In this document: positions 1,158-7,515 of the stretch, one piece after another
Numbering within the stretch: position 1 is the first letter of the stretch
How the letters are laid out: each line of letters begins with the position of its first letter
DNA from: Flavobacterium ammonificans
GTDB taxonomy: Bacteria > Bacteroidota > Bacteroidia > Flavobacteriales > Flavobacteriaceae
Assembly: GCF_020885975.1 (NCBI RefSeq)
Contig: NZ_AP025183.1
Span: 1,674,001 to 1,738,000, forward strand
Direction: 5' to 3'
DNA: 64,000 bases
Notes under the pieces: model-generated
Databases searched by the model: none
The model's input: the letters and a program-made list of their open reading frames with translations, nothing else
Told to the model about the DNA's origin: nothing
Program-made: the position numbers and the translations under genes

Positions 1158-2348
1158 ATGATTATAGAACCTAGAATGAGAGGATTTATTTGCTTGACAG
1201 CGCACCCAGCTGGATGCGAGCAAAATGTAAAAAATCAAATTGCTTACGTACAATCTAAAGGCGCTATTGATGGTCCAAGACGCGTATTGGTTATTGGTGC
1301 TTCTACAGGATTTGGATTAGCATCAAGAATTACAAGTGCGTTTGGTTCTAATGCAGCAACATTAGGTGTTTTCTTTGAAAAAGCACCTTCAGAAGGGAAA
1401 ACAGCTTCACCAGGTTGGTACAATTCTGCTGCTTTTGAAAAAGAAGCAACCAAAGCAGGTTTGTATGCTAAAAGTATCAATGGAGATGCTTTTTCTAACG
1501 AAGTAAAACAACAAGCGATTGATGTAATCAAAGCGGATATGGGTCAGATAGATTTAGTGATCTATAGTTTGGCTTCGCCAGTCCGTATGCACCCATCAAC
1601 AGGAGTATTGCACCGTTCTAGTTTGAAACCAATCGGAGGGACGTTTACGAACAAAACGGTTGATTTCCATACCGGAAATGTAACACAAGTTTCTATCGAA
1701 CCAGCGGTTCAAGAAGATATCGATAACACGGTTGTGGTTATGGGTGGTGAAGATTGGGCGATGTGGATGGACGCTTTGAAAGGGGCTAATGTTTTGGCGG
1801 AAGGCGCTACAACAGTTGCCTATTCGTATATTGGACCTGAAGTTACTGAAGCGGTTTACAGAAAAGGAACTATTGGTCGTGCCAAAGATCATTTGGAGGC
1901 AACTGCTTTTGAAATTACAAAAGACTTAGCTTCTTTGAATGGTAAAGCGTATGTTTCTGTTAACAAAGCGTTGGTTACCCAAGCGAGTTCAGCTATTCCA
2001 GTGATTCCATTGTATATTTCATTATTATACAAAATCATGAAAGCCGAAGGCATTCACGAAGGGTGTATCGAACAAATCCAACGTTTGTACCAACAACGTT
2101 TGTACTCAGGACAAGCCGTTCCAACAGACGATCAAGGAAGAATTCGTATTGACGATTGGGAAATGCGTGAAGATGTTCAAGCTCGTGTAGCTGCATTGTG
2201 GAAAGAATCTACTACAGAATCGTTACCAGAAATTGGTGATTTAGCTGGATACAAACAAGATTTCTTGAACTTATTTGGTTTTGGTTTTGAAGGAGTAGAT
2301 TATCTTGCTGATGCTAACGAGATGGTACAAGTACCAAGTATTTCGTAA
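1158..2348 (+). CDS. fabV: FabV-type NADH-dependent trans-2-enoyl-CoA/ACP reductase
   Basis: The protein (396 residues, the normal length of the family) reduces the trans-2 double bond of enoyl-ACP or enoyl-CoA with NADH, the last step of each fatty acid elongation cycle. It opens with the family hallmark MRGFICLTAHPAGCE, followed by a Rossmann segment VLVIGASTGFGLASR (about residues 44-58). The catalytic Tyr-x8-Lys of FabV/TER enzymes is seen as YRKGTIGRAK (about residues 235-244), in place of the Tyr-x6-Lys of FabI. Relatives from Flavobacterium have been studied as trans-2-enoyl-CoA reductases, so CoA substrates are as likely as ACP ones. It is monocistronic: its own promoter lies upstream and a strong terminator follows. 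ATG 1158 is the only sensible start. Confidence 0.96.
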   Translation: MIIEPRMRGFICLTAHPAGCEQNVKNQIAYVQSKGAIDGPRRVLVIGASTGFGLASRITSAFGSNAATLGVFFEKAPSEGKTASPGWYNSAAFEKEATKAGLYAKSINGDAFSNEVKQQAIDVIKADMGQIDLVIYSLASPVRMHPSTGVLHRSSLKPIGGTFTNKTVDFHTGNVTQVSIEPAVQEDIDNTVVVMGGEDWAMWMDALKGANVLAEGATTVAYSYIGPEVTEAVYRKGTIGRAKDHLEATAFEITKDLASLNGKAYVSVNKALVTQASSAIPVIPLYISLLYKIMKAEGIHEGCIEQIQRLYQQRLYSGQAVPTDDQGRIRIDDWEMREDVQARVAALWKESTTESLPEIGDLAGYKQDFLNLFGFGFEGVDYLADANEMVQVPSIS

Positions 2349-2370
2349 TTTATAGTTACATAATTATATA

Positions 2371-2397
2371 AATGCACCCGATTGGGGTGCATTTTTT
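2371..2397 (+). terminator. Rho-independent terminator of fabV
   Basis: AATGCACC pairs with GGTGCATT (2371-2378 with 2386-2393) around a short loop and is followed by a T-run. It lies 22 bases after the fabV stop codon. Confidence 0.85.
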
Positions 2398-2534
2398 ATT
2401 GTTGCCTTCGAGTTCAGTTTATATTGTTGCCTTCGAGTGTTTATTAATTGTTGCCTTCGAGAACCTCAGGCAACAATAACACGTTGACTGAGCTGAGGCA
2501 CTCGATGGTGGCTGAGGCTCTCGAAGCCACCATC
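2394..2534. repeat. Hairpin repeat cluster on the 3' side of the GIY-YIG gene
   Basis: Two left half-copies of TTGTTGCCTTCGAG (near 2399-2412 and 2425-2437) precede two complete hairpins. Hairpin one (2447-2477) has a perfect 10-bp stem ATTGTTGCCT/AGGCAACAAT around the 11-base loop TCGAGAACCTC. Hairpin two (2504-2534) has a different perfect 10-bp stem, GATGGTGGCT/AGCCACCATC, around GAGGCTCTCGA, which is the reverse complement of the first loop with one change. The second hairpin ends at 2534, immediately next to the stop codon of the minus-strand GIY-YIG gene (2535-2537). Confidence 0.85.
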
Positions 2535-2828
2535 TTACTTCCCTAAATCTCTGTACGCTTTTGCTAATTCGGGTAATGAATCCATTTTACCTTCAATTAG
2601 AGCCTCTTTCTTTTTTCTACTCCAACCTTGTACTTGTTTTTCACGATAAAAAGCAGTGTCTATTCTTGGGTATTCTTCATAATAAACTAAAGTAACAGGT
2701 AAATTCTTTTTAGTATGATTTGCACCTTCACCATTTTGATGTTGTTTCAATCTGCGTTCTAAATCTATTGTACTTCCAGTATAATAACTTCCGTTAGCAC
2801 AAAGTAAAATGTACATATATCCTTTCAT
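2535..2828 (-). CDS. GIY-YIG nuclease domain protein (UPF0213-like)
   Basis: This 97-residue protein is a stand-alone GIY-YIG nuclease domain of the small UPF0213/YhbQ-like type. The visible motif parts are YMYILLCANGSYYTGST (residues 4-20, the GIY...YIG strands), the catalytic Arg region DLERRLKQH, and the metal-binding Glu in FYREKQVQGW followed by the basic helix SRKKKEALI. No DNA-binding domain is attached, so its target cannot be read from the protein. The gene is bracketed by hairpin repeats: one abuts its stop codon and another starts 16 bases upstream of its ATG. That suggests it travels with, or acts on, these repeats, which is inference only. The known general role of these small proteins is poorly defined (structure-selective or DNA-repair nuclease activity). 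Confidence 0.88.
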   Translation of the reverse strand: MKGYMYILLCANGSYYTGSTIDLERRLKQHQNGEGANHTKKNLPVTLVYYEEYPRIDTAFYREKQVQGWSRKKKEALIEGKMDSLPELAKAYRDLGK

Positions 2829-2844
2829 AACTTAGATATTAATA

Positions 2845-3178
2845 GCGTTGCCTTCGAGAACCTCAGGTAACAACGTTAACATAATAATTGTTGTCTTGTA
2901 GTTCGTTTATATTGTTGCCTTCGAGTATTTCTTACTTGTTGCCTTCGAGAACCTCAGGCAACAATAACTTGCTCTCGATGATGGCTGAGCTCTCGAAGCC
3001 ATCATCTGCTTTTCTAATATATTTATATTGTTGCCTTCGAGTATTTCTTACTTGTTGCCTTCGAGAACCTCAGGCAACAATAACTTGCTCTCGATGATGG
3101 CTGAGGCTCTCGATGATGGCTGAGGCTCTCGAAGCCATCATCAACTCTCGAGGGTAGCTGAGGCTCTCGAAGCTACTC
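2845..3178. repeat. Hairpin repeat cluster between the GIY-YIG and type IIG genes
   Basis: This 340-base gene-free stretch is almost wholly repeat. It holds an imperfect hairpin (2845-2876); TTGTTGCCT/AGGCAACAA hairpins at 2936-2964 and 3052-3080; GATGATGGCT/AGCCATCATC hairpins at 2977-3006 and 3112-3142 (the latter with an extra left arm at 3093-3102); and a shorter (G)GGTAGCT/AGCTACTCC hairpin at 3152-3178. All share the loop GAGG(C/T)TCTCGA or its reverse complement, except that the 2977 copy has lost one G. The block 2936-3006 is repeated as 3052-3142, so it grew by segmental duplication. The last right arm contains the stop codon (3173-3175) of the next minus-strand gene. Confidence 0.85.
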
Positions 3179-5692
3179 CTTCAAAAACCCATACTCATAC
3201 ACTTTCGGTTTAATGTCATCCGCGAGGATGGCGAGTTGTGAACGCAAGTTGCCGATTAATTCCATATACGTAGCATCATCGCTTTTGGAATTCATTCTGC
3301 CTTTTTCGTTTCTACCTTGGAAGTACTCGCGGATGTCGTACAAACTTGCGTTGGCGTTGTAAACGTCATTGCGAGTTTGCGAAGCCATCTTGTGGTAATA
3401 TTTCCACAATTCACGACCAGCATTGAAAACGGCGGTGGCTTCTGGTGAGAAAACCAACGCTTTGTCATTCCGAACTTGTTTATTCTTGTCATGCTGAACT
3501 TGTTTCAGCATCTCTGGGGAACCTGAAACAAGTTCAGGTTGACAAGCGTTACTAAATAAATCATTTGTAACTGCTACCCCTTTGGGGGTTGGGGGGCTCT
3601 TCATAAAATCTGTCATAAAGTTGCTGGCAAACTTGTCTTGGGCATTGACTTCATACTCCGTAAACGGAATCCAGTGGTTGGTGCCGAATTGACTTTGGAT
3701 ATTATTATTAAATAAAGTATAGGTTAAACAATTAGATTGAAATTCAGTATCACTAAGCCAGCCATCATCTGGGTATAAAAATTGGTCTCTGTCGTTAAGC
3801 CAAGTTGCTTGTAAACATTTTCGTACTGTAAAATACGTACTTGCAATAATTAAATTGTATTCATTTATTAAAAACTGTCCTGCAGCTTTATTATAAATCA
3901 TATCAGGATGATTTATTTGAATTATATTTTGTTGTTGGAAATCATTACCCATAAATGGAAATTTTCCAATTATTCTATTCGAAGTTTTACTTGCTCTATA
4001 TGGCTTTATCCATTCATTGATGAAATTACTATTATCATAAGCTATGATTTTTTTTTGTAAAATGTATTGACCATCTTTATTATAAACATCAGCTTCAACT
4101 TCTTTGAAAGAATTTCTGTAATCAGTATTCCATATCATAAATCCAATCGGAAATTTCCCTTTCACATTATCAAAAGTATCTGCAGGGACAATAAAAACAG
4201 TTTCAATTTTTGCTTTAAAATTAAGTCTGAAATCTGAAAAGTGTTTTCCTTGTAGTATTTTTAAAGTTGAGAACTCAGCAAGTATACATCCTGGAATTTC
4301 TTTATTAATTCTAATTAGAAATTGAGCAAAAAGTTCTCTATTACCTTGACCTAAAATTGATGCATATTTTTTATTTACATAAGATTGTTCTACACCAGCT
4401 TTTCCATCTTTATTAAAGTTTCTATCTGGTGCCTCCGCGTACGGAGGATTGATATACACCACTAACTTCTTGCGTTTTTCTTCGTCGTTAATAATGTCTT
4501 GTAGGCTTTGGGGTAGTTTGCTAAAATCGTCGTTTAAAAAATCAAACTGAAATACGTTTTTTTTGATCAGGTTGGCACCACCATCAATACGTTCGTGCAT
4601 TACGCTAATGTCGGCTTGGTCAAGTGTGCTAGCATAGATGTGGTATTTGTTGGTTAAACCCACCAATAAATTACCAGTTCCTGCGGCGCAATCCCAAATA
4701 TAATAGTCGTCTTGCCAGTTTTGTCCCAAATAATCGGTGAGGTATTTTTGGGATAATTCTACCCATTTTCTTGGGGTAAAAAACGCCCCTTTTCGTTCGC
4801 GAATGTCTTGCGGCACCAACAAATCACGTCGCTCAATAATGTAATCTTGAAACTCTTTTAAAGGCGGTCGTTTGTAGCGTTTCCAAAACTGCAAATAGGC
4901 TTCTTTGTTTTTTAGGTTAATGGTGGCGTCAAACATTTGTTTGATGTTTTCCTTGGCAATTTTATAGCCTTGGTTTTGAAACACCACAAACAAATTATCG
5001 CGAATGCTCGAATCATCTTCCAGTGCCTGCGTGTCTTTGTCGTCTACAAATAAGTCGGCAAGGTAAAAATCACTGTCCATAATATTCGCCTGTTTCAAGT
5101 CGTCCCAGTTGACATCGATAATGGGTTTCACCACTTCGAGCCATCTCAAATAAATAGGAATAAAATTGTTTTTATCAATCTTTAATTTGTTGGCAGTTGT
5201 AGCTTTGGCAACATTATTTTTAATGAAGGTTTGTAGTTCTTTTTCGTCCTTTTCGTAGTCGTACACATAGGTGTTTTTGTTAAGAATGGACTCAATTCGC
5301 TCTTTAATCAACAGGAATTCTTTGGTTTCGTGATTGCTTGGCGTTACGTTCCAATTGAAATCGTTCATATAAAAAATATCCGAAATATTAATGTAGGGCA
5401 CAAAGGCAATTTTCTTAAAATCGAACGCGCCTAAAAACGCCGGTGGCATCGTTTTGTCAAAGGTTCGCGCTTTCCCAATGGTCAAAATCAATTGGACAAA
5501 CATAGTAGGAATATCGAAGTTGCCCGTTTTGGCTTCTGCCCAAAGCAAAGGAGTTCTGCCAAATATATTGTCTTGTTTTGGAAAGACGGTAAAGTCAATA
5601 TTACCTAGAATTTCTGTAGTATCAAAAGCGGCAAACCAGTCGGCGCCTACTTTGTTCTTTAACTCTTCTTCACGAATGTTTTTGTATTTCAT
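3173..5692 (-). CDS. Single-chain restriction-modification enzyme, type IIG-like (PD-(D/E)xK nuclease + N6-adenine methyltransferase)
   Basis: The protein has 839 residues. The N-terminal part looks like a PD-(D/E)xK nuclease: Asp33 in NIDFTVF, then Glu53 and Lys55 in LLWAEAKTG, followed by a helix VQLILTIGKAR. The central part is an N6-adenine methyltransferase: SAM-binding motif I in WDCAAGTGNLLVGL (about residues 334-347) and catalytic motif IV NPPYAEAPD (about 414-422). The remainder should hold target recognition. It would cut and methylate DNA at the same site in one chain; no separate R, M or S gene is adjacent. Residues about 698-775 contain peptides typical of dispersed repeats (SPPTPKG, QPELVSGS, LKQVQHDK, ASQTRNDV), so this part has been invaded by repeats without breaking the frame. 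The TAG stop lies inside a hairpin repeat. Nuclease activity is inferred; the methyltransferase call is firm. Confidence 0.85.
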   Translation of the reverse strand: MKYKNIREEELKNKVGADWFAAFDTTEILGNIDFTVFPKQDNIFGRTPLLWAEAKTGNFDIPTMFVQLILTIGKARTFDKTMPPAFLGAFDFKKIAFVPYINISDIFYMNDFNWNVTPSNHETKEFLLIKERIESILNKNTYVYDYEKDEKELQTFIKNNVAKATTANKLKIDKNNFIPIYLRWLEVVKPIIDVNWDDLKQANIMDSDFYLADLFVDDKDTQALEDDSSIRDNLFVVFQNQGYKIAKENIKQMFDATINLKNKEAYLQFWKRYKRPPLKEFQDYIIERRDLLVPQDIRERKGAFFTPRKWVELSQKYLTDYLGQNWQDDYYIWDCAAGTGNLLVGLTNKYHIYASTLDQADISVMHERIDGGANLIKKNVFQFDFLNDDFSKLPQSLQDIINDEEKRKKLVVYINPPYAEAPDRNFNKDGKAGVEQSYVNKKYASILGQGNRELFAQFLIRINKEIPGCILAEFSTLKILQGKHFSDFRLNFKAKIETVFIVPADTFDNVKGKFPIGFMIWNTDYRNSFKEVEADVYNKDGQYILQKKIIAYDNSNFINEWIKPYRASKTSNRIIGKFPFMGNDFQQQNIIQINHPDMIYNKAAGQFLINEYNLIIASTYFTVRKCLQATWLNDRDQFLYPDDGWLSDTEFQSNCLTYTLFNNNIQSQFGTNHWIPFTEYEVNAQDKFASNFMTDFMKSPPTPKGVAVTNDLFSNACQPELVSGSPEMLKQVQHDKNKQVRNDKALVFSPEATAVFNAGRELWKYYHKMASQTRNDVYNANASLYDIREYFQGRNEKGRMNSKSDDATYMELIGNLRSQLAILADDIKPKVYEYGFLKE
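3366..3390. repeat. Dispersed repeat inside a coding region (GCGAGTTTGCGAAGC type)
   Basis: GTCATTGCGAGTTTGCGAAG resembles a dispersed element I recall from many Bacteroidota genomes. Read on the minus strand it encodes ASQTRNDV within the type IIG protein. This is recognised from memory; copy number in this genome cannot be seen here. Confidence 0.5.
3488..3543. repeat. Double-hairpin dispersed repeat inside the type IIG gene
   Basis: Two 6-bp stems, GCTGAA-CTTGT-TTCAGC (3493-3509) and CCTGAA-ACAAG-TTCAGG (3522-3538), have complementary loops, giving an imperfect inverted pair bounded by GTCA and TGAC. Minus-strand translation gives QPELVSGSPEMLKQVQHDK, a peptide signature commonly seen where this element lies in open frames. 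Confidence 0.75.
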
Positions 5693-7053: not shown

Positions 7054-7515
7054 TTATTGTAATTTTTCAAAAACATAACTCTCGTTATATTGAATATTGA
7101 ATTTCTTTAATGTGGACAAATATTCTTCTTGAAATGTTCTATCTCTATGATGGTTTTCTTGATTTTTGATATAATTATAGACAACATCCAATTGTTTATG
7201 ACTATATGAAAACACACCATAGCCTTCTTGCCATTCGAAGCGATTCAATAGAAATCGGTTATCATTGATGTATTTTGAAGATTTCGCTTTTACTATTTTC
7301 ATTAATTCTGAAATAGAAACAGTGGGTTTTAAACCAAATAAGCAATGTACATGATCTTCTACGCCGTTAACAATGATGGTTTTACAACCCGTTTCATTGA
7401 TTAGATTTCCAATAACACTAAACACACTAGCTCTCCATTCTTTATCCAAAACCGCAGCTCTATATTTCACTGCAAACACAGCTTGTATGTATACTTGATG
7501 ATAGGTATTTGCCAT
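7054..7515 (-). CDS. REP-associated / IS200-like tyrosine transposase (RAYT, Y1 HUH family)
   Basis: The 153-residue protein is a complete transposase of the IS200/IS605 TnpA fold in the single-copy REP-associated subgroup. It shows the HUH motif as HVHCLFGL (about residues 54-61) and the C-terminal helix with the candidate catalytic Tyr in VVYNYIKNQENHH (about residues 110-122). Y1 HUH enzymes nick single-stranded DNA at hairpin feet through a 5'-phosphotyrosine. No accessory TnpB and no IS200-like terminal hairpins are seen. Instead, two long blocks of perfect palindromes sit directly upstream (7547-7856), as in REPtrons where the RAYT gene is next to the repeats it mobilises. The frame is undamaged, so the enzyme may be active. 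The N-terminus MANTYHQVYIQAVFAVK matches Bacteroidota members of the family. Confidence 0.9.
   Translation of the reverse strand: MANTYHQVYIQAVFAVKYRAAVLDKEWRASVFSVIGNLINETGCKTIIVNGVEDHVHCLFGLKPTVSISELMKIVKAKSSKYINDNRFLLNRFEWQEGYGVFSYSHKQLDVVYNYIKNQENHHRDRTFQEEYLSTLKKFNIQYNESYVFEKLQ

Follow-up and report, generated by a model that had tools for sequence, protein, structure and literature searches.

REPs are widespread bacterial repeats. Among the closest systems described are the REP/RAYT (TnpA-REP) REPtrons, in which small palindromes with a 5′ tag form inverted pairs and the enzyme gene is flanked by its own repeats; enzyme and repeat are reported to co-evolve (PMC8266576). A survey by Di Nocera and colleagues sorted REPs into GTAG- and CGTC-tagged repeats, the latter (which include dRS3 of Neisseria) apparently without a dedicated transposase (Di Nocera 2013, PMC3733652). 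Apart from a few cases put down to chance, that survey found no transposase gene with CGTC repeats on its flanks, and it held that the CGTC families are possibly heading to extinction or borrowing transposases (PMC3733652).

In the current study, we characterized a hairpin array around a small nuclease gene of Flavobacterium ammonificans. The locus and its relatives share with REPtrons the small 5′-tagged palindromes, their occurrence in inverted pairs and the placement of the enzyme gene among its own repeats. Unlike REPtrons, they have a GIY-YIG enzyme (PF01541, not PF01797) rather than an HUH Y1 transposase, and their tags are of the GTC type or a lone G, not GTAG. Most of the proteobacterial loci and many of the Bacteroidota loci studied here carry CGTC-tagged REPs; whereas the survey reports no dedicated enzyme for these (PMC3733652), here they flank GIY-YIG genes, as an association. 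The family of the Flavobacterium locus itself lacks the GTC tag, the AT stem start and the CCA tail of such repeats, and was therefore not filed as a CGTC REP. The UPF0213 small GIY-YIG proteins (YhbQ, YazA; 1zg2, 1ywl) have the same fold and are sequence relatives, but five control loci of this type held no tagged perfect hairpin within 450 bp, and in YhbQ and YazA Leu replaces a Trp that is common in the hairpin-flanked proteins. As with GIY-YIG homing endonucleases, the nuclease gene lies inside the repeat it would target and may spread by cutting and repair; in contrast to them, no intron or intein was seen at the Flavobacterium locus, and recognition would be of a folded hairpin whose stem is free to vary in sequence.

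Hairpin Array at the Flavobacterium Locus

The window is the whole 64,000-nt stretch of contig NZ_AP025183.1 that was analyzed. Its positions 2394–3178 hold eight strict CTGAG-N-TCGAAG hairpins (core CTGAGGYTCTCGAAG) surrounding a GIY-YIG nuclease gene. The features are as follows.

2398–2437, minus strand: two half-elements (CTCGAAGGCAACAAT, without partner arm), read from the sequence
2447–2477, minus strand: hairpin, core 2455–2469, stem ATTGTTGC/GCAACAAT
2504–2534, plus strand: hairpin, core 2512–2526, stem GATGGTGG/CCACCATC; adjoins the stop of the nuclease gene
2535–2828, minus strand: GIY-YIG nuclease gene, 97 aa (PF01541, 68.7 bits)
2844–2874, minus strand: imperfect hairpin, core 2852–2866, with a stem mismatch; upstream of the nuclease ATG
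2936–2964, minus strand: hairpin, core 2943–2957, stem TTGTTGC/GCAACAA
2977–3006, plus strand: hairpin, core 2985–2998, loop one base shorter, stem GATGATGG/CCATCATC
3052–3080, minus strand: hairpin, core 3059–3073, stem TTGTTGC/GCAACAA
3112–3142, plus strand: hairpin, core 3120–3134, stem GATGATGG/CCATCATC
3152–3178, plus strand: hairpin, core 3158–3172, 6-bp stem GGGTAG/CTACTC; overlaps the end of an 839-aa ORF
3487–3544 (3487–3508 plus, 3523–3544 minus): second hairpin family (TGTCA-NN-CTGAACTTGTTTCAG), two copies in inverted orientation inside the 839-aa ORF

With at most one mismatch, the window has 11 matches to the loop GAGGYTCTCGA where 0.60 would be expected, a count that none of 100 shuffles reached, and nine of the 11 matches lie within 2457–3170; the strict core, CTGAG-N2..8-TCGAAG, is found eight times, always at 2455–3172. 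An initial annotation had counted at least six hairpins with a common loop and had described the nuclease gene as bracketed by them, one adjoining its stop and one near its ATG, and both descriptions hold. Its further claim, that every hairpin has its own complementary arms, is true of seven: the arms ATTGTTGC, GATGGTGG, GATGATGG and GGGTAG are present, with contiguous stems of 8, 8, 8, 8, 7, 7, and 6 bp beyond the closing CT/AG, whereas in the eighth (core 2852–2866) a mismatch interrupts the stem after 1 bp.

Across the 2.27-Mb genome, the strict core occurs 34 times vs. four times for the reversed pattern, and the exact 11-mer loop 15 times vs. none for its reverse. Stems elsewhere in the genome had likewise been expected to be complementary; by script, some copies do pair well, but several have a mismatch beside CT/AG or little contiguous pairing. 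The second family, TGTCA-NN-CTGAACTTGTTTCAG, has 17 genomic copies (at most two mismatches), three of them around another GIY-YIG gene (G000:C1:1310886-1311140), which is likely its cognate.

Several other observations were made in this genome. The 839-aa ORF (3173–5692, minus strand) reads through the TGTCA-NN-CTGAACTTGTTTCAG inverted pair and resembles by eye an adenine methyltransferase/restriction enzyme (NPPY motif), with no Pfam match at E 0.001. Nine of ten GCGGCATCCTTTT..AAAAGATA palindromes (L243–L252) have a CTGAGG..CGAAG core, and another GIY-YIG gene (L011) has one such palindrome at a distance of 229 bp.

The GIY-YIG Protein

The AlphaFold2 model of the window protein has a pLDDT of 90.9, and its nearest folds are UPF0213 1zg2 and 1ywl, followed by Slx1. 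In the numbering of this protein, Y6, Y16, G18, T20, and R26 are present in all 117 aligned proteins flanked by hairpins, H30 in 116/117 and E63 in 116/116; Y6, Y16, R26, and E63 are the catalytic Tyr, Tyr, Arg, and Glu of GIY-YIG enzymes. Trp69, which is Leu in YhbQ and YazA, is found in 136 of 142 flanked proteins, the other six comprising four gaps and two other residues. Since the Trp is shared by 29 of the 50 proteins outside the flanked class (21 of these 29 belonging to the 26 loci that were judged by eye) and by one of five UPF0213-type controls (L185), we regard it as no more than a hint.

Covariation of the Stems and Structure of the Element

Copies near GIY-YIG genes in relatives bore out the complementarity of the arms, with pairing far above that of shuffled arms. 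Among 206 A-loop elements (CTGAGGNNCTCGAAG) within 500 bp of GIY-YIG genes at 61 loci, stem pairs 1–4 are Watson-Crick in 180, 194, 180, and 154 elements, against shuffled means of 76, 148, 118, and 65. When a single element was taken per locus, the counts were 53, 60, 52, and 44 of 61 vs. 20, 45, 30, and 17 after shuffling. Each pair occurs as three or four Watson-Crick types, and there are 18 different perfect 4-bp stems, the complement being exact in 115/206 elements. Position −5 is G in 205/206, its pairing not being beyond chance, and position −6 is C in 111/206. The stem of these relatives is thus a covarying duplex without fixed sequence, while the loop and a single 5′ base hardly vary; taken together, covariation and the G at −5 define an element consisting of a near-fixed G, four free complementary pairs, CT/AG and a near-fixed loop. 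At four loci (L077, L078, L095, L124), even the closing CT/AG has become TT/AA, with both sides changed. Inverted arrangements are the commonest among 303 neighboring pairs of A-loop elements, 129 having their 5′ ends facing and 65 outward, with 109 in tandem.

Linkage of the Gene and the Hairpins

A link between this nuclease clade and the hairpins across genomes, also predicted from the window, was found at two scales. The best 80 of 531 relatives were analyzed, with the far flanks of the same loci serving as controls. A strict hairpin lies within 500 bp of the gene in 71/80 loci, and the density of strict hairpins falls from 5.86/kb at 0–250 bp to 1.10 at 250–500 bp, 0.16 at 0.5–1 kb and 0.04 at 7–10 kb; the reversed motif has no occurrence within 7 kb and two at 7–10 kb in these 80 loci. 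With one-base variants allowed (relaxed motif), 79/80 loci are positive within 500 bp, and the density is 7.74/kb near the gene vs. 0.08/kb at 5–10 kb, a ratio of ~94; at the sole exception (L130), the contig begins 288 bases before the gene. In a survey of 101 genomes of the genus, a clade-A gene (identity of at least 73%) was present in eight, and at least five A-loop copies were found in 7/8 genomes with the clade-A gene vs. 5/93 genomes without it (Fisher p = 3.5e-7). Six genomes (G079, G057, G077, G053, G063, G004) have 26–154 CTGAG-N5-TCGAAG copies with no examined GIY-YIG gene beside one. As a separate observation, a GIY-YIG remnant with several stops lies beside CTGAGCGAAGTCGAAG-type hairpins in G060 (L189/L204), a genome with 13 CTGAG-N5-TCGAAG copies.

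Most often, the gene is bracketed by hairpins whose 5′ ends point outward. Among loci with a hairpin on both sides, this arrangement was seen in 7/12 of the CG set, 11/14 fresh loci (see below), 24/53 of hairpin class A and 10/12 of class B4, but in only 4/17 of class B5.

Nuclease Subfamilies and Hairpin Families

Relatives from the genus at 39–49% identity have other hairpin families beside them, such as TGTCA-tagged CTGAGCGAAGTCGAAG or CTGAGCTTGTCGAAG hairpins. A likeness of the window loop to CTTCGACAGGCTCAG palindromes had been noted at the outset, and indeed CTGAGCCTGTCGAAG and CTGAGCTTGTCGAAG were found beside further members of the nuclease family. A further type, T2, has the form GTCA-(S)TTCGAGTG-(inner hairpin, variable)-TGTATCGA-GAA(S); its outer pair S varies, with the two sides changing together. 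Paralogs within one genome mostly lie beside different hairpin families: G068 has five genes, one with an internal stop, and four families, namely A-loop, T2, CTGAGCGCAGTCGAAG and, for two genes, CTGAGCCTGTCGAAG or CTGAGCTTGTCGAAG; in G067, an A-loop gene and a T2 gene lie 14 kb apart; and G040 has A-loop, T2 and CGTC-type families, the last read by eye.

The matching of nuclease and hairpin families is loose, not strict. The 80 loci comprise 63 of class A, 12 of B4, four of B5 and one without a class, 12 of them being mixed, and 16/142 classed loci hold more than one hairpin class. Even among the eight clade-A loci of the genus survey, L137 has B4 hairpins (CTGAGCCTGTCGAAG-type), L138 has B5 hairpins (CTGAGCGGAGTCGAAG-type) and L136 is mixed. 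When hairpin class was mapped onto a tree of 179 proteins, 17 changes were counted vs. 99.4 after shuffling, with none of 200 shuffles as low, and nine changes fall among flanked proteins; because the tree was built from few columns, with many close copies among its rows, and because at least three rows with very long branches (L126, L165, L170) are probably in the wrong frame, only the size of the contrast was used. B5 copy number also differed (11/20 vs. 4/81 genomes in a hand tally covering part of the GIY-YIG loci, 14/20 vs. 5/81 in a looser one), and this contrast carries no weight in our argument.

Two side observations concern the breadth of the family. Six Bacteroidota genomes (G163, G241, G152, G185, G246, G285) have 9–10 GIY-YIG matches of this branch each, at E up to 1e-8, and a locus of the alphaproteobacterium Sphingomonas (L162) has the loop CTGAGCGAAGTCGAAG, as in many Flavobacterium loci, with a CGTTCA-like start.

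CGTC/TGTC-Tagged REPs Beside Distant Relatives

Relatives of the nuclease were drawn from a plasmid collection (79 and 45 records, overlapping), the loci being sampled by hand rather than at random. In the first 12 loci, tagged perfect hairpins were detected by script in five (L163, L164, L166, L168, L169), tagged or CTGAG-type families were recognized by reading or scan in four (L161, L162, L167, L172), and no such hairpins were found in three (L165, L170, L171). All ten further loci (L173–L182), some closely related to each other, have tagged perfect hairpins, vs. 0/5 UPF0213/YhbQ/YazA-type control loci within 450 bp. The proteobacterial repeats have a CGTC, TGTC or CCTC tag, an 8–9 bp stem usually starting with AT, a 4–5 base loop and a CC/CCA tail. 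In a 3.72-Mb record of S. meliloti Ak57, 5/5 copies of one REP (at most three mismatches) lie within ~0.8 kb at the gene, and in the 1.76-Mb Neorhizobium EC2-8 plasmid 3/3 copies of one REP, at the same threshold, lie at the gene. In three Shinella records, 4/12, 4/12, and 2/47 REP copies are at the gene. Away from the gene, 9/10 Shinella REP pairs less than 100 bp apart have their tags outward (by eye), and the Shinella gene, too, has a REP on either side with its tag pointing outward. As far as these few cases indicate, a unit carrying the gene would therefore look like an outward REP pair with the gene in its spacer.

For a wider comparison, a fixed rule ([CT]GTC followed by five perfect pairs, with a loop of 4–18) was applied unchanged to fresh loci, namely the best-scoring 30, and thus not a random sample, from a phylum-wide search with the L222 protein that matched 155 genomes. 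A [CT]GTC hairpin lies within 400 bp in 28/30 loci (none in L266 and L278), although chance alone would give about 30% of these loci a hairpin and a few of the 28 may be due to chance. The rule found 94 hairpins in 23,897 bp near the genes (3.93/kb) vs. 18 in 41,300 bp far from them (0.44/kb), while five other tags gave 0.25–0.80/kb near and 0.12–0.56/kb far, with 2.2 and 2.4 as the largest ratios. Under a stricter rule (six perfect pairs, loop of at most 14, CCTC allowed, 500 bp), 21/30 fresh loci were positive. In an earlier set of 26 loci, tagged hairpins were recognized in 26 by eye and in 15 by the fixed rule (1.73 vs. 0.31/kb). Near and far densities per kb by this rule were 3.25 and 0.71 in the CG set, 0.91 and 0.32 in the B set, 0.42 and 0.20 in the T2 set, and 0.23 and 0.27 in 22 GIY-YIG controls; at the 80 loci of the A-type clade, [CT]GTC hairpins showed no enrichment (0.24 vs. 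0.22/kb). Sharing of 12-mers was found in 22/26, 13/15, 21/26, 14/15, and 49/76 loci vs. 8 to 13% of shifted intervals; 13/22 controls were also positive, probably because there are tandem GIY-YIG paralogs among them. A first detector (GTC with 7-bp arms and one mismatch), which gave 4.42/kb near vs. 1.95/kb far in the CG set, was replaced; near and far were not clearly separated by it in the other sets, with values per kb of 0.96/0.86 for the 26 loci, 1.15/1.02 for B and 0.84/0.60 for T2.

Presence/Absence Sites

Sister strains had been proposed as a source of empty sites, and two sites differing in the presence of the gene were found, one of which keeps its REPs without the gene; at neither was an insertion junction or target duplication readable to the base. 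Between gltA and lpxB, the gene is present in S. meliloti Ak57 together with several REPs and the 3′ fragment of a second gene copy, and Sinorhizobium sp. M103 has REPs and lacks the gene, which fits a simple deletion. At the other site, Shinella HZN7 and WSD5-1 have four REPs and the gene, and S. oryzae and S. sumterensis have neither in the compared stretch.

Discussion

We consider it probable that the hairpins are a REP-like family around a GIY-YIG gene, whose nuclease is predicted to recognize the tag and loop and to cut there. The nuclease would thus bind its own hairpin, a prediction that, like that of cutting, is drawn from the association of gene and repeat, the family matching and the conserved active site. 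Specifically, the enzyme would recognize the constant tag and loop in a folded single strand or a cruciform and cut it; after a cut at tag or loop, the broken end would be mended with another copy as template or through fold-back synthesis along the arm that is left. Such repair may duplicate the repeat at new sites, at times together with the gene, and would restore one arm on the model of the other, so that the arms could change yet stay complementary. GIY-YIG enzymes hydrolyze DNA and are not known to carry a strand as HUH transposases do. For this reason, spread would occur by cutting and by copying during repair, a route closer to homing than to the strand transfer of RAYTs. We read the locus as a REP-enzyme system in which a GIY-YIG nuclease probably takes the place of the HUH transposase of REP/RAYT.

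Alternatively, intergenic hairpin clusters might simply collect genes, the GIY-YIG gene being a passenger that does not act on the hairpins. REPs are known insertion targets for other elements (PMC1525189), and the M103 site has REPs and lacks the gene. We nevertheless think a passenger gene quite unlikely, given that in two replicons all copies found of one REP lie at the gene (5/5 and 3/3), that paralogs of one genome have different hairpin families beside them, and that no tagged perfect hairpin lies near the five UPF0213/YhbQ/YazA-type controls. Control by the nuclease is also conceivable: it might remove or trim the hairpins of its family, as a check on cruciforms or REP number, without spreading them. 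The same recognition data would fit, and the near folds include Slx1, a branched-DNA nuclease; yet copies cluster at the gene, and copy number is higher, not lower, where the clade-A gene is present, which makes this role unlikely.

The hairpins might instead act as RNA, serving as terminators or regulators of the nuclease gene rather than as its DNA substrate. They lie near the gene's start and stop, and covariation alone cannot tell DNA from RNA. However, runs of at least four T after the stem are equally rare on the two sides (26 and 25 of 206), copies lie far from any GIY-YIG gene, and the window region 2300–3300 has no Rfam match at E up to 1; the share of G-T among non-Watson-Crick pairs (0.155 vs. 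0.105 shuffled) decides nothing on this point. We judge an RNA function very unlikely. A Y1 transposase of the IS200/RAYT type could also be imagined to move the hairpins, the nuclease being incidental. An IS200-like Y1_Tnp gene does lie at 7054–7515 in the window, and GTAG-tagged REPs are known partners of such enzymes (PMC3733652). The 2013 survey, on the other hand, found no transposase gene among CGTC repeats except for the few chance cases (PMC3733652). Neither of the two Y1_Tnp genes of the window genome (L241, L242) has a T1 or T2 hairpin within 1.5 kb, and on this ground the Y1 transposase was rejected as the mobilizer; we hold it to be extremely improbable.

Several observations were counted against the REP-like reading with an acting nuclease, namely the copy-rich genomes without an examined cognate gene, the M103 site, the loose matching of clade A, the 5/93 genomes with A-loop copies and no clade-A gene, the reduction to 21/30 fresh loci under the stricter rule and the few columns of the tree.

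No earlier description of GIY-YIG genes with REPs was found in the titles and abstract openings among the matches listed, preprints and most subscription papers being outside the scope of that search. Because REP-enzyme systems as such are already known, the novelty lies in an unrelated enzyme in place of the transposase. From their position beside the repeats, GIY-YIG nucleases are likely the missing partner enzymes of CGTC-tagged repeats. With somewhat less assurance, we lean toward a broader proposal, in which the CGTC/TGTC REP superfamily as a whole, along with sister families such as that of the window, would have them as its dedicated enzymes, making up a second, HUH-independent class of REP system: a hydrolytic nuclease would read tag and loop of a hairpin with a freely varying stem and spread it by cutting and repair, and gene-free inverted pairs would be short derivatives. 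The proposed range covers Bacteroidota and Proteobacteria, with Cyanobacteria and Planctomycetes included from one locus each. A named enzyme family with many swappable nuclease-hairpin pairs makes the question of the CGTC enzyme directly testable. If the proposal is true, these would be small nucleases that read structure plus loop, and their activity would explain the repeated CTTCGAC..GCTCAG and TGTCATTCC..GGAAT palindromes in many of the loci described here.
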